Below, piece after piece: positions 7,294-60,543 of a stretch of 64,000 bases of DNA. Both the position numbers and the translations under genes were made by a program. This stretch comes from Coffea arabica (Eukaryota; Streptophyta; Magnoliopsida; Gentianales; Rubiaceae), in NCBI RefSeq assembly GCF_036785885.1, contig NC_092323.1, positions 1,466,501 to 1,530,500 on the forward strand, written 5' to 3'. Under the pieces are notes generated by a model. The model was given only the letters and a program-made list of their open reading frames with translations. It did no database searches and had not been told where the DNA came from. Within the stretch, counting starts at the first letter, position 1. Every line of letters starts with the position of its first letter.

Positions 7294-9193
7294 GAGAAAA
7301 ATGCAGTTTTGGTACCCAAACTTTGACGCACGAGCAGTTTTAGTCCCCAAATTTTGGACCAAAACAAATTTGGTACCCAAATTTTTAAATTTTGAGCACA
7401 TTAAATACCCTGAACGATTTTTTCCCAAATTGCTACCAGAAAAAGCCACGTGTCCGGCCACAATTGTATGAACAATGCCCAAAAAAATTTCAAGTGCTAT
7501 TCTAATGCTAACTATTAAATTTAAGGACTAATAGCATAATAAAGTAAAAATCCAAGGACTAAAATAAAAGAAGAAGAAAAGGATAGCGCACTGAAACATG
7601 TAGATTCTTCACGTGCAGTGCACATCGTTTTCACTTCTACTTTAGAATTTGTTCCGTTTTGATTGTCAGAGGTGGTTCTACTGGAGTTGAACTTGCTGCA
7701 GAAATTGCTCCAAAATGGAACAGAAGTGAATTTGAACTTGGGCTAGGGAGATTTTCACTTGATCCGCTGTGGACAGGACTATACTTTTCCCCAGTGGACC
7801 TTCTTTGGGAGAAGAATTCATCATCCTCGTCGGAACCCATGTTGTTTGCAGCACCATTTCTGTAGTCTTGGTGGAAATGGTGGTGCTGCTGCTATTGACG
7901 TGGCAGCGGCGGCAACGGTTGGAGCTCCGGCGAGCCTAGCCGTTGATACTGAAGTGAAGCTAAAACTAAAGCTGAAGGGACAGTATTATGGTGATCTTCT
8001 GAGCTCTGAGGAACATTAGATGCCTCGTTTTTTTACATCTCTGGAGCTTACTAGAGCTCCCAGGTAGAGAAATTCCGAGCTGTTAGTGGAAGGAGTGTGG
8101 TGGGGCAGCTGTGGCGGCAGAGGTGTTCCCGGAAGTGGGTTTTTTGTGGTGGTGCTGTCGAAAGGAGTGGCGTTGGGTGAGAAAAGGTGAAGACTGTCTG
8201 TCTTGGAGAAAGCCCGTTGGTGTTGGTAGTAGTAGCGGAGGCGTCGGTGGTGGTGGAGAAGGATAAAGGCGGCAATGCTGGCGATGAAGACGGTGGAGAC
8301 AAGGGATACCGAGACAATGACAGCTATCAGTTTGTGAGAAATGGGCCTGTTATTAGAGGAAGAGGAAGAATGGGGAAGGATGAGAGATGAGATATTGGCA
8401 GGAAAAGTTGACAACGGAGGGAGGGCGGCGAAGAAGCTGGCGGAGGAGACCAAATAGAAGGGAAAAATGGGTTGTTTTCGGACTGAGAATTAGTGGGAGG
8501 TGAAAGTGAGGAGAAAGCGTACCTTGGTTGGAGCTGAGGTTGAGACTGTGGGGAGGGGAAAGGAGGTTGAGGTAGGGTGGTTGGTGGAGGAGCTGGTGGA
8601 AGAGAATGGCTAACAGGGAACAATGGCTGATGGAGGATACGGTGGCCATAGTGGTGGCTAGTGGTGGTGGTGGTGGTGGTGGAGAAGGAGGAGGAAGCTG
8701 TGGTGAAGAAAGAAGTAAAGAAACAGCAGTAAATGCAAAAGAAAATATTACTAATACTGGTAAAAGTCTTCATCTTTAGCTAGAGAAAGTCTTTAATGAA
8801 CGAGCTCTGCTTTCTCCTCTTCAGTATCTGTTCCATTAACAAAAAAGTAGTAGTGAAAACGATGTGCACTGCACGTGAAGAATCTACATGTTCTAGTGCA
8901 CCATCGTTTTCTTCTTCTTTTATTTTAGTCCTTGGATTTTTACTTTATTATGCTATTAGTCCTTAAATTTAATAGTTAGTATTAGAATGGCACTTGAAAT
9001 TTTTTTGGGCATTGTTCATACAATTGTGGCCAGACACGTGGCTTTTTCCGGTAGCAATTTGGGAAAAAATCGTTCAGGGTATTTAATGTGCTCAAAATTT
9101 AAAATTTTGGGTACCAAATTTGTTTTGGTCCAAAATTTGGGGACTAAAACTACTCGTGCGTCAAAGTTTGGGTACCAAAACTGCATTTTTCTC
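7294..9193. mobile_element. Pack-MULE carrying a formin gene fragment
   Basis: Terminal inverted repeats of about 350 bp (7294-7650 and 8846-9193) enclose about 1.2 kb of unrelated DNA. The ends read GAGAAAAATGCAGTTTTGG and its reverse complement. The element is flanked by an exact 9-bp target duplication, TATATTGAA (7285-7293 and 9194-9202). The interior holds an antisense formin N-terminal fragment (separate entry) and no transposase. This is the definition of a Pack-MULE: a non-autonomous Mutator-like element that has picked up host gene DNA. Close similarity between its two ends suggests fairly recent activity. The end at 1-359 belongs to the same family. Confidence 0.93.
7640..8773 (-). 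pseudogene. Captured N-terminal fragment of a class I formin (FH1/FH5-like)
   Basis: From an ATG at 8773 the minus strand encodes a hydrophobic leader, a proline-rich segment with RILHQPLFPV, the juxtamembrane motif TFPANISSLILP, a membrane helix (LIAVIVSVSLVSTVFIAS) and FLYLGALVSSR. These are followed by GSPELQPLPPLP and a DEDDEFF acidic motif. This order is the N-terminal half of plant class I formins, actin nucleators anchored in the plasma membrane. The actin-binding FH2 domain is absent, since the fragment stops at the transposon end. The frame shifts near 8440 and again near 8030 at an A run, and there is an in-frame stop near 7897, so no intact protein is made. It is probably a decayed gene copy carried by the Pack-MULE and could at most give antisense or small RNA against a parent formin. 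Confidence 0.9.
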
Positions 9194-9329
9194 TATATTG
9201 AATGACAGGTGAATCAAATCAATCCTGAATAAGTTTGAAGTAAGAGTCGTGCAATTGAGCATTTTAAACATAAATCGCGTCTTTTTTAGTGAAAATTGAA
9301 GAAGCTTTTTATATTATTGAAAAAATAAT

Positions 9330-9492
9330 TTGTTTGGATTGTAAGTTATTTGAGATATTTTTACTGTAGCACTTTTTGTGATGTGATGTATATGAGATAA
9401 AAAGGTAATTGGGAAGATAAAAAGGTGTATTGGAAATTGTAATGATCGTGTAAGCAAATATATTTGAGAAAATAATCAGCTGTCCAAACAAA
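9330..9492. repeat. MITE of the TTTGTTTGGA family, copy 1
   Basis: The ends TTTGTTTGGA and TCCAAACAAA are inverted copies. The interior contains the words ACTGTAGCACTTTTTGTGATG and GAGATAAAAAGGTAATTGG-like sequence that recur in the copies at 10796 and 54603. I did not find a clear target duplication, so the superfamily is open; hAT-like is one possibility. Confidence 0.65.
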
Positions 9493-10795
9493 CATCAAAA
9501 AGAGGAATTTGGTTCGCCCTATCAAAAATATATAGCACTCAAATATGTACTCTTCAAGTCTTCACCCTCTTCCCCTCACAAATTTAATTGAAAAAAAAAA
9601 AAAAGGAGAAAGAGAGCCATAGCACTCTTTTTGCCATAGGCCTCTGTCTTTTAAATGTTAATTTTCAAGAAAAATGTTGTGAATCGCACCCCTCGTAACT
9701 TTTTTTTTTCTAATGAAATTCCATCATATAAAAATATGATATTTTTGAAAGGAAAATTATTATCCATTCACAAGATTCAAAGAATTAAATGTAGTACCAC
9801 TAACAAATAATTTTTTTTTTTTAAAAAAACCATTTTTTGGCAATTGCTTCAATAATATTGTGCTACTGTCGGCTAGTTTAATCAACTTGTATTAAAGAGA
9901 ACGAAGAATACTTTGAATTAGAGAAATAAGTGATTGAATATTTTATTCTAGAGGCCAGGATGGGAAATTTTCTCATGAAGAAAATTAATCAGTTCGTCAT
10001 GAGTTTTTACATACGGGAAGGAGGAGGAAGAGAAAAAATAGCAAGGCGTACAGGCAACTGCCCTCGCGTCTGACCCACCCACACCACTTCCTTTATTTAA
10101 CTGATACCGCCACCCAATTCCACTCCCATCCATGCCGCCACTGTCGATGCCGTCTATCCCACTCAGGCACTCACCCATTTATGTGTATGTATACATATAC
10201 ATATATATATATATATATATATTTATTTATTTATTTTATATATTTATATATTTATATGTATGCATGTATATATATATATATATATATTTGTATGTATGTA
10301 TAATTACTGCAAACAGATATTAGGCGATCAATATTCATGGCACCGTCGGTAGAGGAAATTCGCCATGTCCAGCGGGCTCATGGTCCAGCAACCATGCATA
10401 TTGGCCACTGGCAGTTTGGCACCACCACTTTTTCTAACTGTATGTATCAGGCAGATTACCCTATTAGAATTTTGTACAGAATTCTAAGTGAAAATTTAAA
10501 CACTTGAGCTCCCGTGCTTTTCTACTAGAATAATGATACTCATTGAAACGTATTTTTTTAATCACCCACTTTCACACATGTACGCAATATATGCTCTCTC
10601 CCGGTATTCAAAACACTTTTTGCCGAGTTTGAAATTGGTTCTTTTGAAATAAATTTTGTGCTTCAAAAAATAAAGACAAAATTTTGTATAAAAAATTGTA
10701 AGTGAAATTTTTAAGCATTTAATTTGCAGCAAAAATGTAAGTGAAAGTTTTAAGCATTTAATTTACTGAACGTTTCTACTAAATTAATAATAAGT
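9493..10795. other. Intergenic DNA with TA-rich microsatellite
   Basis: No gene is recognised. A compound (TA)n/(TTTA)n/(TATG)n microsatellite spans about 10190-10300. The proline- and serine-poor open frames here are low-complexity shadows. Confidence 0.5.
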
Positions 10796-10954
10796 GTGTT
10801 TGAATAGGAGATTTTTTGAAATAATTACTGTAAAACTTTTTATGAAATAATGTATGTAAAATAAAAAAATGATTGAAAAGATAAAAGGTTAGATTGAAAA
10901 TTGTGTTTGTGTTGTAAGCAACGTAATAATTGATATTATTTTGCAATCCAAACA
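10796..10954. repeat. MITE of the TTTGTTTGGA family, copy 2
   Basis: The stretch starts GTGTTTGAATAGGAGATTTT and ends TTTTGCAATCCAAACAT, imperfect inverted ends. The interior words match the copy at 9330 (ACTGTAAAACTTTTTATG, ATAAAAAAATGATTG). It is more diverged than copy 1. Confidence 0.6.
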
Positions 10955-10986
10955 TATTCAGTACTAGTATCATTCACAATTATTTT

Positions 10987-10987
<1 letters not shown>

Positions 10988-11024
<37 letters not shown>

Positions 11025-11052
11025 CATGTAGTATTTCTCTCTCTCTCTCTTA
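10988..11052. repeat. (TA)n and (CT)n microsatellite
   Basis: About 16 TA units run from 10988 to 11020, followed by a short CT run at 11036-11051. It is length-variable DNA with no coding role. Confidence 0.9.
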
Positions 11053-13640
11053 AACACATATATTTTCACATGAATAGATATACTCTTACACATGCAAAGC
11101 ACATGTAACATTGGCAATACACACTATTGAACCATAATAACTTGTATATTACACATATCAAAACATACATCTTTCTTTCTCAAACACACCCATTTGCCTG
11201 CATACTTTCTCTCTCATATATACATAAAACACATGTTTCATATTAGGATTTAGTTTCTCAATATTGAAAATAAATATTTCAAAAATTAATTTAAGATGGA
11301 ACAAATGTCACTAAACTATGGTCTTGTATCACTTTAGGTCACTAAACTAATTTTGTAGCCGAAAATGTGACAGGACTAGCAAAAGTGTATGATTTGGATC
11401 ATTCTACCAAAATTTGACCGCGAAGAGAAACGGAATGGCCTCCATGTGACGAGCATGCGGCCTTTTTGAGAGGCGAAATCATCCAAACAGCTTTAAGCAC
11501 ATTAGTAGATGGAACAATTCAATTCATACCTCGAAATTCCTCCAAACTGCTTTGAATCTTGCGGGAAAGAGTTCGTCCATTCCAAAGTAGAAAAAGCGAA
11601 GATTCAAGTAAAAGATTGAAGATACATGTTCATCGATCAATAAAGTTGTTGGCCAATGAATTGCGATGATGAAGTGGGTAAAGCGGCGGAGGGGGATACA
11701 TACTTCGATTCGTACACAATAATAATGTATGGTAAGAAATCATTTAAACTCACTCCTTTAGATTTGGTTTTTGTTGCACGAATCATGGAAATTCAGGTGT
11801 AAAAGATGAAAAGAGGTTTTTTTTTTTTTGGGTCTAGGGTTTTCTGATTTACAATGATTGGATCGAAAGGGACGACACGAGAGCAATCTGGTTCTGTTTC
11901 AAATTTCAATATCCCAAAAGTCCGAAAAAACAACCAAATACTAGTGGTGTTCTTTTTGGTCGATGAATGTAGTACAGTATTTGATCATCAAGTAGCATGC
12001 ATCGAGTTTTACTTTACCCCGGAAAAAAGGATGATAATTACATAGGTATGTAACTACTACATGTATGGGGGGATGTACCATGCAAAGTCAAAAGTTTTGA
12101 CTTTGCATTTTTTATCCCTAATATTTGAAGTTTTGTCCGATATGATCCCTTATGCTGCAATTAGTTATATTTAAGGTTTTCAAATGAAATAAAACATGAA
12201 TTAATTTGAAAATGGTGTTCTTAAATCTAAGTAAAAATCTCTAAAGCATATTACATCAATACAACACTGTCTATTTTTCATCTTAAAGAGCGTATCTTTT
12301 TTAAATTAATTACTACAATTGAATAACCCAATTCACATAGAATTTCATCTTAAAACTATTTAAAACTCAAGGGATTATAATGATGATTTGAACTCCACAT
12401 CCACATGTATGTTAGGGACTAAAAGTGCAAATTTAAAATTGTTGAGTAACAAAAATTTAATTTTGACAGGTTCAATATAATGATTAGTATTAGTAGTGTT
12501 CAGATTGATGAGGTGGAGTGGACTGCGCAACAACTTCAAATATATTATTATTATTGTGTTATTAGAGCCGAGGGTGACAAGAATCCAAAGCCTTTTTGAT
12601 GAAGAATTACGAATAAAAAAGAAATTATGAGTAGTGAGTGGAAGAGTGTACTCAACAAGTGTAAAATATATATATATATATATATAGTAGAGGAAGATGA
12701 ATTGTTTCATTTTTTTTGTGTCTGGGGGTTTGGTAACTGGTGGTGAGAGGATGATGATGAAGAAGAAGAAGCTTTTATTAACGCTTAATTAATTATCAAG
12801 GATCAGGAATGAACACGAGAGAGAGAGAGAGAGATGAGTTGGCAGAAGGAATGTCAACTTAGCTGGCTGCTGGCCTTTCGTGGGGTGGGGTGGGGATGTC
12901 AATTCTCAATTCTCAATTTGCCATTATGCCAGCCATGAGCCAACCCACAGCCAAAAAAAGAAAATTCTTTTTCAATATACTAATCTATTATTAGTGGTAG
13001 TATATCTGTATTAGTAGTAGTACGTAATTAAACTCGATCTTCCGACACCCTGCCCTGACTGAGTACCACCACTACTACCGTCTCGCCGCCAGCAGCAGCA
13101 TTACTACCTTACAACTTCGGACGGAGTAAGTACTAAACCAATTCTCGTGCTCCTCCAATTAATTGATGAGGACATGCTATTTTCATGCGCCTAAATCTAT
13201 ACTTTAATACACGGATGAGTGACTTATATATATACCAATTTTTGCGCATTAATAATTTGTACTATTAAAATAATAAAAATTATACATACCAAGTGTGTGA
13301 GTGTGATCTTATCTATATATACACGTGGATTTAACTCCTTCTTTAATTGATTGATTGAAATAATAATAATATTATGCTCTCCACCCTTGACCCTCCCTCT
13401 ACTGCTGTTAAGGCTTCGTTTGGAGTTGTGGTGCGGTGGTGCTTTTTGATTAATAATAAAAAAGAATATACTTTTTTAGAGTTTTAAAAAAATATATATA
13501 CTTTTTGATGAACTTCCTCCGTCATTTCATGAAATTAAGACGGGAAAGCTCAAATTTAAGTACAGTAATACTACTACTATACTAAAATAATAAGTAAGAA
13601 AAGAATAATAATACCTTTCCGGCAGTCGGTCGTAATCCTA
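11053..13640. other. Intergenic DNA with one-sided Mutator-like end
   Basis: From about 11297 the sequence AAATGTCACTAAACTATGG, followed by GGTCACTAAACT, resembles the terminal repeat of the Pack-MULE at 58826, but I found no matching right end, so this is probably a broken relative. No coding frame is recognised. Short microsatellites occur at about 12667-12687 (TA) and 12818-12834 (GA). Confidence 0.45.
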
Positions 13641-13667
13641 CTAATTTGTCATGTTTTTGTGTTTTGC

Positions 13668-13761
13668 GCTGCTGCTGCTGCTGCTGCTGCTCCTCCTCCT
13701 CCTCCTCCTCCTCCTCCTCCTAATACACAAATTAATTGATTGATTGATTGATTGATTGATA
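13668..13761. repeat. (CTG)n, (TCC)n and (GATT)n microsatellites
   Basis: A run of about 7-8 CTG units passes directly into about 10 TCC units (to 13720). A (TTGA)n tract follows at about 13736-13760. All lie upstream of the receptor-like kinase gene. Confidence 0.9.
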
Positions 13762-15598
13762 ATGCTCTTGCAGCGGTGAGTCGGCAATCCTATTCCTCCT
13801 AGACTAGAGTAGTATTTTATTCCTTTTTTTTTTATTCTCTCTCTTTTCCTCAACGAACCCTCTCTCTCTCTGTGCGCTTATCTCTCCCACTCCGGAGAAG
13901 ACTCCCTCCCCGTTGAAAAGGAAAGGGAAGAGGGAGAGGGGGGAGGGGTTCCTGTACCGTACTGGGCTGGCCAGTTTTGCTTCTTTCTCACTACTATCCC
14001 CACTGCATAGTTCGGCCGTAACAAAAGCTGCTAATTACTACTCATCCAATCCTCTGAAAACTAGGAACTACAATCTCCCCGCCCTCAAACACACCCATCC
14101 ACTACAATTTGGTGAAGTGGCCAAATTTACGTGCAGTAACACATTTTCAACGCCCCCCCCCCCCAAAAAAAAATTTTCTTAACCAACAAATACTCAGTAG
14201 TATCAGATCAACCAGTCTTACTTGATTGCTATTTCAGCGTGTGTGTCGGTGGAGGGTGTCGGCATTGTCGTCGTCGTCGTCCGCAGCCTCCTGTCTTTCT
14301 CCTTCCTTCTAATGGGAATGGGTGAGCGATGCTACCACACCACCAATCTACTACTACCATTTCAATAGGTCTGCGGATGAAGATGAAACTTCAGAGGAGG
14401 AGGACCTCCCCCACCCTCACCCCCCCAATTGTAGTTGCTGTCCTGTTTTCCACTACACAAAACCATAACCGAAAAATCTAACATTCTAACAACACACCCG
14501 ACCAATCCCTCCTGCCGGAGGCGGTGCTAATTTTGATTCTGATTTTCCCAAGGGTATTAGAGTAGAGACTCTTTTTCCAATTTGTTTAATCATTCGATGA
14601 TTTATTACGCCTGCCGGTCAATTCCCACAACCAACTAACCCCACCACCGCCACCTGTTTCCGCAATCCGCTTCTGAATTCCCTTCAATCTGCTAGTTGTA
14701 ATAGTAGGAGGGACTACAGTTGAGTACCCGATTCAAATGTGGGAATGAGGCTGAATTCTGTTGATCCGGCTATTCTTGTTTCTCCTTTCCTGTTACTACA
14801 ACTAGCAGTGGCAATCATCACCGCCGCCGGCAAATGAAGCTGTCCATCATCGGGATCTCACTTCTGCCACTCTATTCTCTGGCCACCACCACCAACCAGG
14901 TTTCCCTCCCCCCATTTTTCCAGCAGCTCTCTCTCTCTCTCTCTCTCTTATTCCCTTACACCTTTTTACCTCTCAACTTCGGATCATAGACTATTTGTAT
15001 ACGGGTTGTGTGTGCGTGCTTATTACTACTATTTTGTGCATCCACCTCCAATGGAAGGCCAAGTCTGTGCAGGTTAAATTTACATGTTAAAACTAGGATA
15101 TCTAGATCACATCTCGGTTATCTAGGACTAATCTCTGTTTTAATGGCTGGGTTATTCCTGTCTGATTCCATTAAGACACTTCTCGTCTTCAAATTTCTCC
15201 CTCAGTTTTCAAGCTTTAATTTCCCGTTAACTCTGCAAATTCTTTCCCGTTATGATGCAATGCTGCATTATCTCAATAATTTTACTTCACTCGTGGACCT
15301 TTTAGCCTTGTGTTGGATGATAATCTATTTTATGCACCTCGCATTTCGAAGAGGTCTTGGAGAGTTGGGTCTTAGCAGCTGCTTCTGTCAAAGTTCATTC
15401 CGACTAATCTATTACCATCATGCTTACTAATGATAATCATCCTTTGTTGTCATCAGCCCCCCGCTCCCTTTATAAGATGCTTCATGCCCCTTTCTCTTAT
15501 GGCTTCTTTTTTCACCAATCCATGTCAGGTTCGATGTCTCATAATCTACACCACCACACATTTCCTCAGTTGTGTTGCTGAAGTAGCTGCCTGACCAA
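13762..15598 (+). promoter_or_regulatory. Probable promoter and intron-containing leader of the receptor-like kinase gene
   Basis: The DNA is rich in pyrimidine runs (CT tract at about 14929-14948). An ATG at 14834 opens a short hydrophobic frame (MKLSIIGISLLPLYSLATTT) that runs into a possible splice donor at AACCAG|GTTTCC near 14900. A possible acceptor, ATGTCAG, lies near 15530. I read this as a leader exon plus intron with an upstream open frame. An alternative N-terminal exon with a signal peptide cannot be excluded without transcripts. Confidence 0.4.
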
Positions 15599-18587
15599 AT
15601 GTCAAGGACTCTTGCAGCAATTCTAGGAGGTGCTGCAGGAGCCGTGGCATTGGTGGGGATTGTGATTGTCATAATACGGTTGTGCCTTTTTCACAGTAGG
15701 AGCATTTCAAGAACTTCTGAGAATGGGTCTTCTGATCCATCAGATCAAGGTTGACTCTTTTGACCTAATTCTGTATTCTATGACACCTATCAAGCGCAAT
15801 CCCCCTTCTACATTAGATGCGTACTGTTTCACTAACTGGTTCGATGGATGACCAGATGGAAGAACTGCTGGGATCGAATTGAGTCTGCGAGATGCGAGAC
15901 GATTTGAGATTGAGGAATTGTCTCTGGCGACGAAAAGCTTTAGTGATAAAAGCTTAATTGGGCAAGGGAAATTTGGAGAGGTGTTCAAGGGCTTACTTCA
16001 CGATGGGATGCTCGTGGCCATTAAAAAGCGACCTGGTGCTCCAAGTCAAGAATTTATTGAGGAGGTGAACTCATTCTGACCTTTGCGAATTCTAGAACTC
16101 CACACTTTCATTTGCTTCAAAACAATATCTAGTTTTCCTTGGAGGGCCTTTATTTGTTTCAATTTGTTTTGGTGGTGTTGTGCATGATGGCCAGTGGGAG
16201 AAGGACTTCTGCTTTGGGCAAGTGTGCAATGATGTAAGACTGAAACATGAGGAATTGGTTCTATGAATTTGGCATTTTGTGGGATCAGAACCATTTTTCT
16301 TTAGACGTATGACCTTGGCATCCTATGTCGCATTTCTGTCATGATCCGTTGGCATTGCATGGGATCGGGGTTCATTATCCTTAGACGTGCATAAATGTGC
16401 TGTCTTACATGCCACTTTTGTCATGGTCCATCCAAAAGAAAGTAGTGCAATTATTTGGCAACATATCACTTGTATTAATTACCATTTCTGATGATAAATT
16501 GTCAAAATATTTTCAGAACTAAATGTTAGTTGTTTATCAGGTGCTCTATGCTTTTTGCTGCATGTGAATTTTTTCCTTTTAGGATTGTGTATCCAAGCTG
16601 TATATGGAAAACAATTTGGGCATTGTTTGCATTGTTTGTATACTGTATCCGTCTTAATAATCTCCAACAATCATCAAATTCTTCTGGGTATTTTTTTCCA
16701 CGCTTTAATTTGCTGACTTTTCTATCAGGTTCGATATCTCTCATCTATTCAGCACCGCAATCTTGTCAGCCTTCTGGGTTACTGCCAGGATAATGGCCAA
16801 CAGATTCTTGTCTACGAATACATACCCAATGGAAGTGTATCTATTCATCTGTATGGTAATTATCTTTTAAGTCGACCTTCTTGCTTTTTCATTGTTCCTT
16901 CCCCTCATGCAAAGGCAGAAATGCTCATTAAGAGTTGGAAGCTGAAGCTTCCCTTGTTCTTCTACTAATGCCTTTCTATCAGGACTCTTTCTCTCTCTGT
17001 GTGCGTGCGCGTTAATATGTCACCTGACAATTTAATAGAAAGAGAAAGGAAAACATCATTACCCACTGCATATTAGTTTCATAAAAGAAATAGCACCTTA
17101 ATATTTGAAATTTCCTTCTCTTATTCCCCTCCCTTCAATCTTTGCTTCCAGTAAGATAGTCCAACATGAAGCTATTTTTGCATGTTATTGTATCTTTTTT
17201 GCTTCTAATCTCAATTAGAGTTTTTTTCATCTATCAGGAGTTTCTGCAGTTGGTTTTGGGTCTCGTTTCTTATCTTGGCAATTTATTGATCCAGAGTATT
17301 TAAATGCTGCAGGAGCTGGACATGTTGCACAAGAGAAGCTTGAATTCAAGCACAGGCTTTCAATAGCTCTAGGTGCAGCTAAAGGTGATCCTTTGCAAAA
17401 CCAGTGAGCGTATTTGGCTTTCCTGGTATTGGTTTATCTTTTCTTTGGAAATAGCTAATAGCAGTCATAGTCAGACAAAATCCTTCCCTGGACATTGTGG
17501 CACATATATTGGTCAAAACCTCTTCAAACATGAAGCATCTTGAGGTATATGCTTACACGTAAAACCTTACTTCTATACTAAAATATGCAGGTCTTGCTCA
17601 CATCCATGCCTTGAGTCCTCGTTTGATACACAAAGACTTCAAAACATCAAATGTTCTTGTAGATGAAAATTTCATAGCAAAGGTTGCTGATGCAGGATTA
17701 CGCAATTTTCTTGGAAGATTTGATATTGCTGGCCCGTCTTCTGAGATGGCAGCTGATGAGATGTTTCTTGCACCAGAGTATTACTCTTTCTATCTTTTGT
17801 TTCCTGAGATTGTTTGGTTAAAGATTTTTATTTTTATTTTTTAATTTTATTTTTTGGTGTAGGGTTAAAGAGTTTAGACGGTTTTCCGAGAAAAGTGATG
17901 TTTATAGTTTTGGTGTGTTTCTTCTGGAGTTGGTCAGTGGCCGAGAAGCATTGGATCTACTATCTTCTGACACCAATCAAAACCTGGTTGAATGGGTATT
18001 TTACAGTTCCGTGCAGTGCTTTATGTATTCGCGATCTAGAGTGCTTTTACCGTTGTCGTCCTCTAGGCATGATTTGGTCACCATAGGCCAGATGATACAG
18101 AAAGTGTCGCCATGACCTTAAAAATACATAATTCAGCTACTTTACAGTAGATCATCTGCTAATCGGATGTTTCATTGTTGCTTCATTTTGCTCCATTGAT
18201 GTTGATAATCTCGTGATATATATATATATATGCCTTGGATTTTGTTCTTGTACATGAGAAACCTTCAAGATACAAGAAGGATTATAGATACATCTGATAT
18301 GTCATGTTCTCCTTTTTCAGCTGCAAAACTATCAGGAATCTGGCGCAATAGCTGTCATCATTGACCAGAGATTGGGTAATAGCTTCACCAAGGAAGGCAT
18401 GGAAGAGTTCATACAGTTGATAGTCCGTTGTGTCGACCCCTCAAGCGAAAGGCGGCCAGCCATGAGTTATGTCGTTCTGGAGCTAGACCGCATACTTGAA
18501 AAAGAAATGAGTTTGACAACAATCATGGTGGGGGAAGGAACCCCAGTCGTGACACTCGGAAGCCAACTTTTCAGGTCTTCGAAATAA
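15599..18587 (+). CDS. Receptor-like protein kinase with a minimal ectodomain and a DAG motif
   Basis: Seven exons (15599-15749, 15856-16064, 16729-16855, 17313-17384, 17591-17777, 17863-17995, 18321-18587) join in frame to give 381 residues. A membrane helix lies at about residues 8-28, with almost no extracellular part, then a serine/threonine kinase domain. The glycine loop GQGKFGEVF is at 86-94, the ATP-anchoring lysine is K107 in VAIKK, and the catalytic loop HKDFKTSN has D202. The magnesium motif, normally DFG, is DAG (220-222). APE and the SDVYSFGV motif are present. D202 and D220 are kept, so catalysis is possible but may be weak. The ligand and pathway are unknown. An upstream in-frame acceptor near 17238 (TATCAG|GAG) would add about 25 residues after GSVSIHLYG. 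Confidence 0.9.
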
Positions 18588-55188: not shown

Positions 55189-56629
55189 CTACCACATCTG
55201 ATTAGCAGCTGAATTTACCTGATAAAGGCTTTGAGAAGCCTCAGTTGTCCAGTAAGCAGCAGCTCCTGATGATGATGATGCATAAGCATTTCCATATGAA
55301 GGTCCAGAAACATGTGACGGAACTTGAGCATATGCTGGTACTGAAGCGTCAGTAGCTGAAATAGCATCAAACGGGAAAGCATATGTATCGTTCGCAATCA
55401 CAGAAATGTCATTTTCGCTACATGGGTGGTGAGCAGGCTGACTACAATGATAATTGCTTGGCTGTCCTGAACGATTAAGTATCCGTTTTACTACATATCG
55501 ATCATATGAAGCAGAAACTTCAGCTTCAGGCAATATATTTGAAAATGGTACTGGAATTGTCAGTATTGGACGAAACAATGACATCAGATTAGTCACCTGC
55601 AAAGCATTAATTGATAAGCGAGCAGTGGAAACAAATGCCCTAAAAAATAAAGGAAATAAACAATGTAAATACAACACCACCTGTTCATTACTCAGCTCTT
55701 GTTTGAATTTGGAACCTGCATTGTAGTTATCTTTAATAACATGCTTAAAGGCACTCTCAGGCAAAGGCAAGCAATCCTTGAATATCTCAAACCTTACCTA
55801 TTGAAAAACAAAACAAGTAGATAAGTCCATGGATTAAGAGGCCTACACAAACTTGATTAGAAATGAAAGCATAAACCAAACAAAACTGCCTTGAAAGGCG
55901 GCTAGATTTTAGATGAACTAATCCTGAAAAGGTTCAACTTGAAACGTTCAACACCTGGTTAATACAATAAATAAAGATCATGGGAAAGAGAACAACTAGT
56001 AGGTGCTTCCATTGAACCACAGGCGTTGGTCCAGTGACCAGGGGAGGGCTCTTAGAGTTCTACCCACTGTTAGGTTCAGGGTTTGAATCCTGGGCCTAGC
56101 AATTGGGGGGTGCAAAGGGTGTGGGGAGGGGTGGGAGATTACCAAAAAAAAATGTAGGTGCTCCCATTGAAGTCCTTGTTAAAAAATATCAGCAGACTAA
56201 GACGACAGGTAAAAGCTGCAGTCTTAGGACAAGTAGTTCTACAATCTCTTAAGTTTCAACATTTGAATGGATCTAGCCTGTGAAGCAAAAGGAATAGAAA
56301 GAAAGAAAACGATAAATTTGTACCTGTGCTAAAAATTTCCCTTGGAAAGCAGTTGGCTCAATTCCAAGTCCTCCATTAGAAGTTGCACAGTAAACACCAT
56401 AAAGAAGTTTCAACTCAAAGTCAAACAAGAACAACGTCATGCAGGGTCTGATTTTCTTAACAACATTCAATCTAGCTGCAGGAAGCCCGAAAACTCTATA
56501 CCTGTAGCAATCAGCTTTTGTTTTTCCATTGCACATGAATATATAGCCTGAAAGTTTATCCTTGCAAGCAAAATTTTCTACTCCATCAGAAGATGGAGCA
56601 AAAGCAACATTTGTAAAGGGGGAGGCCAT
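55189..56629 (-). CDS. DCD-domain protein (Development and Cell Death domain), 5' end uncertain
   Basis: Three exons (56629-56324, 55797-55681, 55596-55189) join in frame to give 276 residues from the first in-frame ATG. The DCD domain starts at [20 protein letters not shown] (about residue 28) and continues [20 protein letters not shown] and [17 protein letters not shown]. In plants, DCD proteins such as NRP1/B2 act in stress-linked programmed cell death; the role of this member is unknown. The C-terminus is rich in Ala, Ser, Tyr and Pro. The frame is open upstream of the ATG to about 56723, after a possible acceptor CTTCCCAG, so more N-terminal exons may exist; a candidate reading KESWKLVIYCSSGLENVDKL lies at about 57125-57008. 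The 84-bp second intron is itself open in frame. Confidence 0.75.
56017..56153 (+). mobile_element. tRNA-derived SINE in a DCD-gene intron
   Basis: The element has an A-box-like GGTCCAGTGACCAGGGG, a B-box-like GGTTTGAATCC and an A tail. It is flanked by an 18-bp direct repeat with one mismatch (GTAGGTGCTTCCATTGAA at 55999-56016; GTAGGTGCTCCCATTGAA at 56154-56171). It lies in the intron between 56323 and 55798, antisense to the host gene. Confidence 0.85.
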
Positions 56630-56725
56630 GGCACCACAAGCAGATGAGCATAAGCAGAAGTTTGACCAGCGCTGAGAAATATGTGTCGTTTTGGAAATAT
56701 CCAATGCAATATACTTCCTGGGAAG

Positions 56726-57865
56726 CCAGAGCTTCTAGTTAGTAACTAGATTAGTTGACTGAACCTCTTTTGCTTCAATCATTTGCCATTTCATGTACTG
56801 TTGTGAAATGAATAAGAAATTAGCTCTCAACGATTATGAAAAACAATATAACAGAGAAGCAGATCTAGAAGCAGCAAAGTTCCTGGAAGAGCTCATTGCA
56901 AGTACAAGACTCATAAAGCAATTAAAATGGGCCTGAAAGGAAGAAGACTATACACTTTAAATCAGAAACCAAGAGTTTAGACAAGAACTAAACCATAAAA
57001 GGCTAACCTTCTTCCCATCCCAACTTGTCATGCAGTGTATGTAGCTTATCAACATTTTCTAGCCCACTGGAACAGTAGATGACAAGCTTCCAGGATTCTT
57101 TTATACCATAAGTTCCAACATTGGGTAAAACCTTTGCGGACAACACGTATTTGCACAACAGTAGCTGTGGGAGCATGCAGACGTAGAAGTAATGATTGGG
57201 AAACTAGTATCAGAATTCAAAAGGAGTTAACAACCAAGGTTTCGGCCTTGGAGGAAACAAGCATCCTTAGTAAATGGAACTTCACATGCTTTCTGAACCA
57301 TCATTTGCCAACAGAGTAGAAGAAAGGTTTAAAGGCTAGGAGGGCTATTGAAGCTACCCCTGCTGGCTTACTCCCTCGTATAAAAGAGTATCAGATCAAA
57401 CCCCCAGATATAGTTCCTCCATTTCTGTGAGAGTTAAACGCAAAATCTAAAGTGGGAGAATTCAGAAGAGAGGGGCAAAATTGTTTATTGGACAAAAACT
57501 GCAAAGCATTGCCAGGATAAAGGCATATATTTTAAGCATTAGTCCATCAATGCTGAGAGAAACAAGAAAGATGAGGCGACATATTTTGCCTGCATGCAGA
57601 AGCTGAAAATTTTTTACACCGTGACTTCGAATTGAAAGGATCCACTGACTAGCAAATTTTTGGTACAGACAACAATTAGCATCCTGAGCTAATAGAACGA
57701 GATCTGAATGGGAAAGTAAGATGTGGTCACAGCATCTGTCTTGGAACGGAAGCACATACAAAGCTCATAAATCACACGCAGGCATTAACAGCATGCAGGA
57801 AGAAAGTTGCAGCAAAGCCAGTTGTATGCTGAGATTCATTAAAATGGAAAGACGAACAAATAAAT

Positions 57866-57898
<33 letters not shown>

Positions 57899-58633
57899 AA
57901 CACAAACTGCACAATAAGTTTAACTAGCTATTTGACTCCGGTGGTTACAAGTCTCGTGTTTCCTTTCTTTTATTTTATTGTAACTTCTCTACCACACCAC
58001 CACAGGAGCACTATTCTGATCTGCTTGTAATGGATGGAGTGAGGCCTATGGCTCATAAATTAACTCAACCCTAACCCGATAATTAACTTGAATGTAATAA
58101 GAAAAATGATCGATGTCTTCCAAGTCTTTCCAGATAAACGTGAATTTCACAATATCATACTTATATAATGCTGAGTTCGAAGACTGATGACTGTAGCTAT
58201 TGCTGCTATTCTTGTAGCAGTGAACTTAAATGATGATGCAGAAACTTGCTAATACTATTCTACTACTACACTAATTGGTACTCCTCAACTAATAATGGGA
58301 AAAACATGCTTCACTTTTGCAGTCTCGTGAAAGAAGGGAAAAAGTACAAAATAAAAAATAAAGATGGTGGGCAGCAGGGGTGGCTTTTGAAATGGAATTC
58401 TCACCTCACCAACTCGGTAATCAGCAGGCAGTTGTCCACCTCCGCCATCCGCCGCCGTCGGCCATTACCGCCACTCCTAGATGGAATTTTTCTTTTGATA
58501 CGCCAAAGAGGGAAAAAATAAATAAATAAATAAAAGGAGTGGGGTCGTCCGTGTCTCAGCAGCACGGCTCGTCTGGTGTGGTCCCGTAATTACCATTTCA
58601 TCCTTTCAATTTGTTCGGACATTTTGGCTTAGG
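56726..58633. other. Upstream region of the DCD gene, no certain gene
   Basis: Apart from the possible exon near 57008-57125, no protein is recognised. A (CA)n(TA)n microsatellite lies at 57866-57898. On the minus strand a GC-rich stretch at about 58395-58470 holds ATG-led frames (MAEVDNCLLITEL) ending at a donor-like GTGAGG, and may be a first exon and promoter. Confidence 0.4.
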
Positions 58634-59199
58634 GCGTGTTTGATAAAATTGAAACCTAAAAATTAAAATACAAAATTCGAAATTTAAATTCATTAAATTA
58701 TTGAATTATTAATTATAAAATTTAATATATTTGGATGCATATCATATTCAGTGATAAGTGAATAGTTTATTACTTAATTTTAGGAGCAAGTTTTATCTAG
58801 AAAATATAGTGCCACTTAATTAATTGAGCGAATTGCGCAAAATGTCACTAAACTATTTCAAAGTGCCGGTTCTGGTCACTAAACTTTTTTATTAGCGCGA
58901 AATGTCACTGAACTAGTAAATCTGTACCGTTTTGGTCACTCCGTGTATTTGTGCCGTCAGGAGAGACGGAAATCAACTTTTTGAGGGGCAAATTCGTCTG
59001 CACAGTCAAAAACCATTGTTGTCACGAGCATTTTTCCATGCTTCAACTGCCACCTTTACATCACGCATAATATTAAATAAAAACCAAAGTTCAATCAGTG
59101 TAATATTTCTTTAATTGACGCTGCCAAGTAGCGCTCATAATATTTCTTACTTTCGTAAGAAAATTTGGGAAACAGATAGGTGAGTGCTTGAACCCGGCA

Positions 59200-59590
59200 G
59201 GATCCTATTGCATCCGCCATCGACCCATTCTTCCACGTCCTCAAAATCCTTCCCTACTTCTTCCTCCGCCCTCCTCGTCTACGTCTAAAGCTCCCATCCT
59301 TCACTCTTCCATCCGCCATGACCATCTACGCCTTGATCCTCCTCACCTACTTCCTCGTCGTGTCAGGGCTCGTCTACGATGTCATCGTTGAACCTCCGGG
59401 CATCGGATCTACTCAGGATCCTCGTACCGGATCAGTTAGACCTGTTGTTTTCCTCCCGGGTCGGGTCAATGGGCAGTATATTATCGAAGGGCTCTCCTCT
59501 GGGTTCATGTTTGTTCTTGGCGGAACTGGGATTGTGCTTTTGGACTTGGCTTTGGACAAAAATCGGGCTAAAAGCGTCAAGGTTTCGTTT
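59200..59590 (+). pseudogene. Captured OSTC (oligosaccharyltransferase complex subunit) fragment
   Basis: The frame reads ASAIDPFFHVLKILPYFFLR, then MTIYALILLTYFLVVSGLVY, VEPPGIGSTQDP, VRPVVFLPGRVNGQYIIEGL and SGFMFVLGGTGIVLLDLALD, ending KSVKVSF. This is the plant OSTC/DC2 family, a small ER membrane subunit of the N-glycosylation oligosaccharyltransferase. The normal start codon position reads ATT, but an internal ATG at 59318 is available. The last helix and C-terminus are missing: at 59590 the sequence switches to the SPL fragment. The coding part is otherwise open, so the fused frame 59318-59710 could encode 130 residues if expressed. Confidence 0.93.
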
Positions 59591-59600
59591 GACTCAGGAT

Positions 59601-60145
59601 CCTGCTGGACCCACTGCATCAGGTCTAAACAACGGGCTTCCTTCACTACCAACCAGAGAAGCGTATTCCAAACTCAGTTCATTTGCTATTCTCTCTGGGA
59701 CATATCTTGATAGTAGCTCCACCAAAGGCCTGGAATTTCTTCTCACTGTTCTGTGAAGGAGACCCATCTCAAACATTGCAGACCTTAACAAATGCTGCTC
59801 TCTTGCACCTATATTACCATCAAGAAGAAGATCTAGGAGTTTCTTCACGACAGCACACCAACCATGGTCTGCTGAGAACTGTATAATCCACTTGAATCGT
59901 GTGAAAGCAAATGGATGAGAATTTTGATCTCAGTGCCCTAGTTTAGACTTCAACTGACTTCTATGGAGAAGCCAACCAAATTCATGTATAAAATCCATGG
60001 CCAATTTTCTACTTTCGGTTTTCACACCAAGACAATCTGTCTCAGGTAATTCCATTTCACTTTCAAGCATACGGATCTCAGAGCAAACATCCTTTTCAGC
60101 AACTATAAAAGGAAAAAAGCTGCTACTAAGGCCAAGATCTTCAAG
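59601..60145 (-). pseudogene. Captured fragment of a large SPL transcription factor (SPL1/SPL12-like)
   Basis: On the minus strand the sequence reads [79 protein letters not shown] and LFRPDAVGPAG. This is the conserved C-terminal region of long SBP-box (SPL1/SPL12/SPL14 type) proteins, upstream of the ankyrin repeats. The DNA-binding SBP domain is absent. There is a stop and frame change near 59925. An intron-like acceptor (CATCCAG) precedes the exon at 60145, with AT-rich DNA beyond, so the capture was from genomic DNA rather than from mRNA. Confidence 0.9.
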
Positions 60146-60543
60146 CTGGATGGTTAAAATATATCAAGAGTAAGGAAAACAAAGAGAATTGCACCCAAAT
60201 CATAAATTGGGAAAAAAGAATTTAAATTTTCTCACTATATTAAATAACCAACAGAAGAGACTGTGCAGACGAATTTGCCCCTCAAAAAGTTGATTTCCGT
60301 CTCTCCTGACAGCACAAATACACGGAGTGACCAAAACGGTACAGATTTACTAGTTCAGTGACATTTCGCGCTAATAAAAAAGTTTAGTGACCAGAACCGG
60401 CACTTTGAAATAGTTTAGTGACATTTCGCGCAATTCGCTCTAATTAATTTAGATATTCAATTTTTTGTTATCAAATAGTCTAAATATGTTAAAATTTGAA
60501 TCCATTAAATTTAAGTGTTGAATTGAATTATTAAACAAGGTTT

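Follow-up and report, generated by a model that had tools for sequence, protein, structure and literature searches.

A Coffea arabica Pack-MULE joining OSTC and SPL gene fragments in opposite orientation, with the OSTC fragment inside the SPL capture

Pack-MULEs with more than one parent gene are already described in plants. Table 2 of PMC4858842 counts, for japonica rice, 264 putative genes of MULE origin with two or more parents, and across species such genes account for 5-10% according to the same source. The Coffea arabica element reported here resembles the rice Pack-MULEs in its long TIRs, 9-bp target-site duplication (TSD), gene fragments and chimeric interior, and differs from them by enclosing its second fragment within the first and by having copied filler at the joins; we found no discussion of a nested fragment with filler joins in the available portion of PMC4858842. 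The tomato PM-ZIBP (PMC3310237) is similar in that a captured fragment has spread as one unit to numerous sites flanked by TSDs of 9-10 bp, but it has one parent and tandem TIRs, whereas the Coffea element has two parents and single TIRs. Animal Pack-TIRs, which are attributed to gap filling or to template switching after fork stalling (PMC8277862), share with the present case the microhomology at breakpoints and, as it seems, repair synthesis off an ectopic template. They are, however, TIR elements of animals, and the Coffea element, a plant MULE, involves two templates as well as copied filler. For MULEs the mechanism of gene uptake "is yet to be understood", in the words of PMC3310237, and a recent review (PMC13317346) was included in the comparison literature. 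No report of a Pack-MULE with OSTC and SPL as its parents was found in the literature searched, where this parent pair is probably unreported.

The window analysed is the whole stretch of 64,000 nucleotides of C. arabica DNA (contig NC_092323.1, positions 1,466,501 to 1,530,500), in which the element occupies 58826-60440. The features of the element are, in window positions:

58817-58825, unstranded: left copy of the TSD, TAATTAATT, with uninterrupted sites in related repeats
58826-59007, plus strand: left TIR, 182 nt, common to other MULEs in the genome
59010-59138, minus strand: SPL capture to the left of OSTC, downstream part (exon start and intron)
59139-59173, unstranded: 35-bp insertion that is in neither SPL locus; its first 10 bases with the preceding base (59138-59148) repeat 59101-59111
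59174-59211, minus strand: SPL capture continued, intron
59212-59216, unstranded: filler of the left OSTC junction; the 10-mer 59211-59220 repeats OSTC 59310-59319
59217-59591, plus strand: OSTC patch of 375 bp, residues 22-145 of 173, in place of 267 bp of SPL
59318-59710, plus strand: fused frame of 130 codons, OSTC residues 55-145 followed by filler and antisense SPL for another 39 residues
59592-59600, unstranded: filler of the right OSTC junction; the 12-mer 59592-59603 repeats OSTC 59411-59422
59601-60258, minus strand: SPL capture resumed, made up of an exon (about 60148-59601) and the last part of the intron before it
59930-59932, minus strand: TGA in frame with SPL, carried by all five copies and by neither SPL locus, one of the two shared exon changes
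60259-60440, minus strand: right TIR, 182 nt, with 2 mismatches against the left TIR
60441-60449, unstranded: right copy of the TSD, TAATTAATT

The whole interior is thereby assigned to SPL, OSTC, the 35-bp insertion and filler. The element has long TIRs, a TSD within the 9-11 bp range, host-gene fragments and ends shared with a transposase-coding MULE; no transposase family is detected in the three reading frames scanned with Pfam, and an Rfam scan of the window gives no match. Its identity as a Pack-MULE with OSTC and SPL fragments, which the original prediction had proposed from its ends, its exact 9-bp TSD and its contents, is therefore upheld. The host site is an older MITE-like repeat, which covers the window from 58628 to 58825 and continues from 60450 to about 60545. 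When the upstream flank was used to look for an allele without the insertion, this repeat filled the best 40 of 2980 candidates: the part at 58628-58825 recurs in at least 39 other genomic places with 81-90% identity, and these repeat copies serve as a stand-in for the empty insertion site. All six copies fetched have the target site unbroken, with TAATTAATT once in each (exact in four and with one change in two), which shows that the insertion and its 9-bp duplication are real.

The parents were sought in the host genome (1.198 Gb in 131 contigs), and two loci were found for each of the genes named at the outset. The two OSTC genes are intronless, one on C10 and one on C9, with 97.9% and 97.7% identity to the patch, respectively, and their protein has 173 residues. 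In addition, the solved human OSTC matches the element frame with an E value of 4.5e-32, and Pfam PF04756 scores 26.7, just below its cut-off of 27. The two SPL loci, L010 and L011, have 98.8% and 98.0% identity over 662 and 658 bp; both lie on C2, separated by about 257 kb and oppositely oriented. The SPL gene thus stands twice, inverted and 98% alike, at C2:55489370-55490671 and 55746299-55747599, as an inverted duplication or an assembly effect. In L010, the one of the two loci scanned with Pfam, an SBP-domain exon (65.6 bits) is found some 4 kb further upstream with the same strand, and order and strand argue that this exon and the captured fragment belong to one SPL gene, which we take to resemble the large SPL1/SPL12 type. 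The SPL fragment of the element itself matches no Pfam family; Mo-co_dimer (E 0.024) and zf-HC2 (E 0.02) give matches below cut-off, which are regarded as due to chance. None of the four parent matches is adjoined by the element TIRs. The genome-wide SPL search, with all 13 candidates scored, returns five copies of the element, the two parent loci and distant paralogues, and the search with the OSTC body returns the two genes and the five element copies among the best 40 of 300 candidates.

The order of the captured pieces is nested. SPL genomic DNA flanks OSTC on both sides, in the order and on the strand of the parent loci, and what is missing between the two SPL parts is the 267 bp, an exon end and an intron start, where the patch now stands. 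Since introns are included in the captured SPL DNA, the template was genomic DNA and not mRNA. The OSTC and SPL fragments are indeed joined in opposite orientation, as was proposed, and the right join, placed at 59590-59601, is found there, with OSTC ending at 59591 and SPL resuming at 59601; the two fragments do not however lie side by side. The left SPL pieces, the filler at the joins, the further copies of the element and the internal position of the start codon of the fused frame had not been noticed before. The nested order might also have arisen if OSTC had first inserted into the SPL gene and the element had then captured a ready-made chimera, for which one SPL capture only would be needed. 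But both SPL loci are without OSTC and retain the 267 bp, and we reject this origin, which has next to no probability left.

The five full-length copies of the chimera, on C14 (the window), C4, C7, C16 and C11, each have an exact 9-bp duplication, different at each site. Because the same chimera is found in all five, each with a duplication of its own, it was formed once and before amplification. The TIR mismatches across the copies are 2, 3, 5, 7 and 13 of 182, and the copies differ pairwise at 12-44 of about 1,600 sites. No SPL-only, OSTC-free or partial element was found, with all 13 candidates of the SPL search and the best 40 of 300 of the OSTC search covered, so that formation in one step and in two steps are indistinguishable. 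Changes present in all copies and in neither parent number two for the 369 bp of OSTC and another two for the 548-bp SPL exon. In the 167 bp of the left SPL segment, a count by eye on the alignment gives four such changes, more than in the rest (Fisher p 0.023). This excess may come from error-prone synthesis or from a different donor allele.

The joins themselves are informative about how the pieces came together. Three of the five interior direct repeats of at least 10 nt fall on internal breakpoints. Repeats of this length, those at the joins counted in, touch about 10% of all positions in the interior. By base composition, the left 10-mer would be expected 0.0014 times and the right 12-mer 0.00005 times in the OSTC patch, in a test devised after the repeats had been noticed. 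Each junction repeat is also partly accounted for by the parents, the bases belonging to neither parent being only five on the left and nine on the right, and a 9-mer of the SPL flank (59198-59206) is an equally possible template for part of the right filler. The left filler is identical in all five copies, and the right one in three, with one substitution in each of the C7 and C11 copies. The 35-bp insertion is likewise present in all five; no repeat is found at its right end, and neither the loci fetched nor the remainder of the window offers more than 12-13-nt matches as its source (E of at least 0.09). Short copied filler of this kind fits what is expected of repair synthesis that switches among nearby templates. 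It can be asked whether serial template switching, rather than end-joining, builds multi-gene Pack-MULEs in general, the polymerase passing from SPL to OSTC and back to SPL and copying again 10-12 nt of nearby element sequence at three breakpoints; we put the chances of this at about even.

For the transposase, a family of MULEs of 5.68-5.75 kb comes into view, five of which were fetched (L014-L018) with both ends 98-99% like those of the Pack-MULE. Two more sequences, L022 and L023, have one such end each and the same long reading frames. Across these seven, some of the transposase-like frames look long and little broken. In the two elements scanned for domains, L014 and L018, the MuDR-type DNA-binding domain DBD_Tnp_Mut is above its cut-off and the MULE domain just under its cut-off of 27.6 (24.5 and 27.1, respectively), and SWIM is above cut-off in the scanned L014 reading frame. 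These 5.7-kb MULEs with pieces of a MuDR-type transposase are the likely movers of the Pack-MULE.

The same ends are seen elsewhere. Three short elements, L019 557-2061, L020 550-1953 and L021 3582-4986, have them too, as well as duplications of 9 bp and different open frames, 165 and 203 codons long, with one and the same frame in L020 and L021; they are probably further Pack-MULEs. In the window, 11303-11389 matches the Pack-MULE ends at 71%, with no partner end in 8000-16000 at the threshold used. A gene encoding a Development and Cell Death domain occupies 55189-56734 on the minus strand, and the Pack-MULE is apparently located on the upstream side of the 5' end of this gene.

We favour an account of formation which, taken as a whole, we hold with good confidence. 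A non-autonomous MULE would have enclosed between its ends a genomic SPL segment of about 1.1 kb. In the same or a later repair event, synthesis would have jumped to an OSTC gene for 375 bp before returning to SPL, and the joins would have been left with short copied filler after the template switching. The finished chimera would then have been mobilised as one unit to at least four more sites by transposase from the full-length MULEs that share its ends; the resulting copies, apparently without function, would now be decaying neutrally.

A function had been suggested in two forms, the first of which concerns the fused frame. It was said to be open for 130 codons with an OSTC part followed by antisense SPL, which is confirmed, and to be possibly a new gene in the making, which is not borne out. 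In favour of the element carrying a young gene for a membrane protein, it may be said that the frame is intact in three of the five copies (C14, C7 and C11) and includes two hydrophobic OSTC segments. However, it starts at an internal OSTC methionine, residue 55 of 173, without the native start codon, and the C-terminal residues 146-173 are absent too; it is broken by a 1-bp deletion in the C4 copy and a 13-bp deletion in the C16 copy, and three short upstream ATGs precede it in the left part of the element. The OSTC part has 11 nonsynonymous and 7 synonymous substitutions, in agreement with a neutral expectation of 65% nonsynonymous (p 0.81, on 18 changes only), and the SPL frame has 14 nonsynonymous and one stop against 3 synonymous (p 0.59 against neutrality, again 18 changes). 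With so few substitutions in either part, weak selection may have acted. The open frame itself says little for coding, since 18 changes would still leave it free of stops with a computed probability of 0.80, and openness is thus expected by chance at the observed divergence. A gene carried by the element is accordingly very improbable.

The second form is an action on the parents, by which the element would yield antisense transcripts or siRNAs reducing the expression of SPL, and of OSTC, in trans. Regulation of parents by Pack-MULEs is named as a possibility in PMC3310237. In the present case the identity to the parents reaches 98.0-98.8% for SPL and 97.7-97.9% for OSTC, the longest exact runs are 141 nt and 100 nt, and of the distinct 21-mers of the window copy 586 are present in the SPL loci and 271 in the OSTC loci (either strand, introns included), with five copies of the element as possible sources. 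On the other side, 54 of the 71 changes are C to T or G to A, with a mild C-to-T excess at CG and CHG against CHH (odds ratio 1.96 with p 0.025; p 0.056 for CG alone), and this bias suggests copies that are methylated and silent. Silencing and siRNA production can nevertheless go together, and we regard an effect in trans as unlikely, though clearly less so than a new gene.

The element is not evidence for a new gene. Two-parent and multicopy Pack-MULEs were already known, as was template switching for TIR elements, and what this locus offers is an unusually clear record of acquisition. As a young element whose parents, joins and five copies are all readable in one genome, it makes a clean case for the repair-synthesis model.
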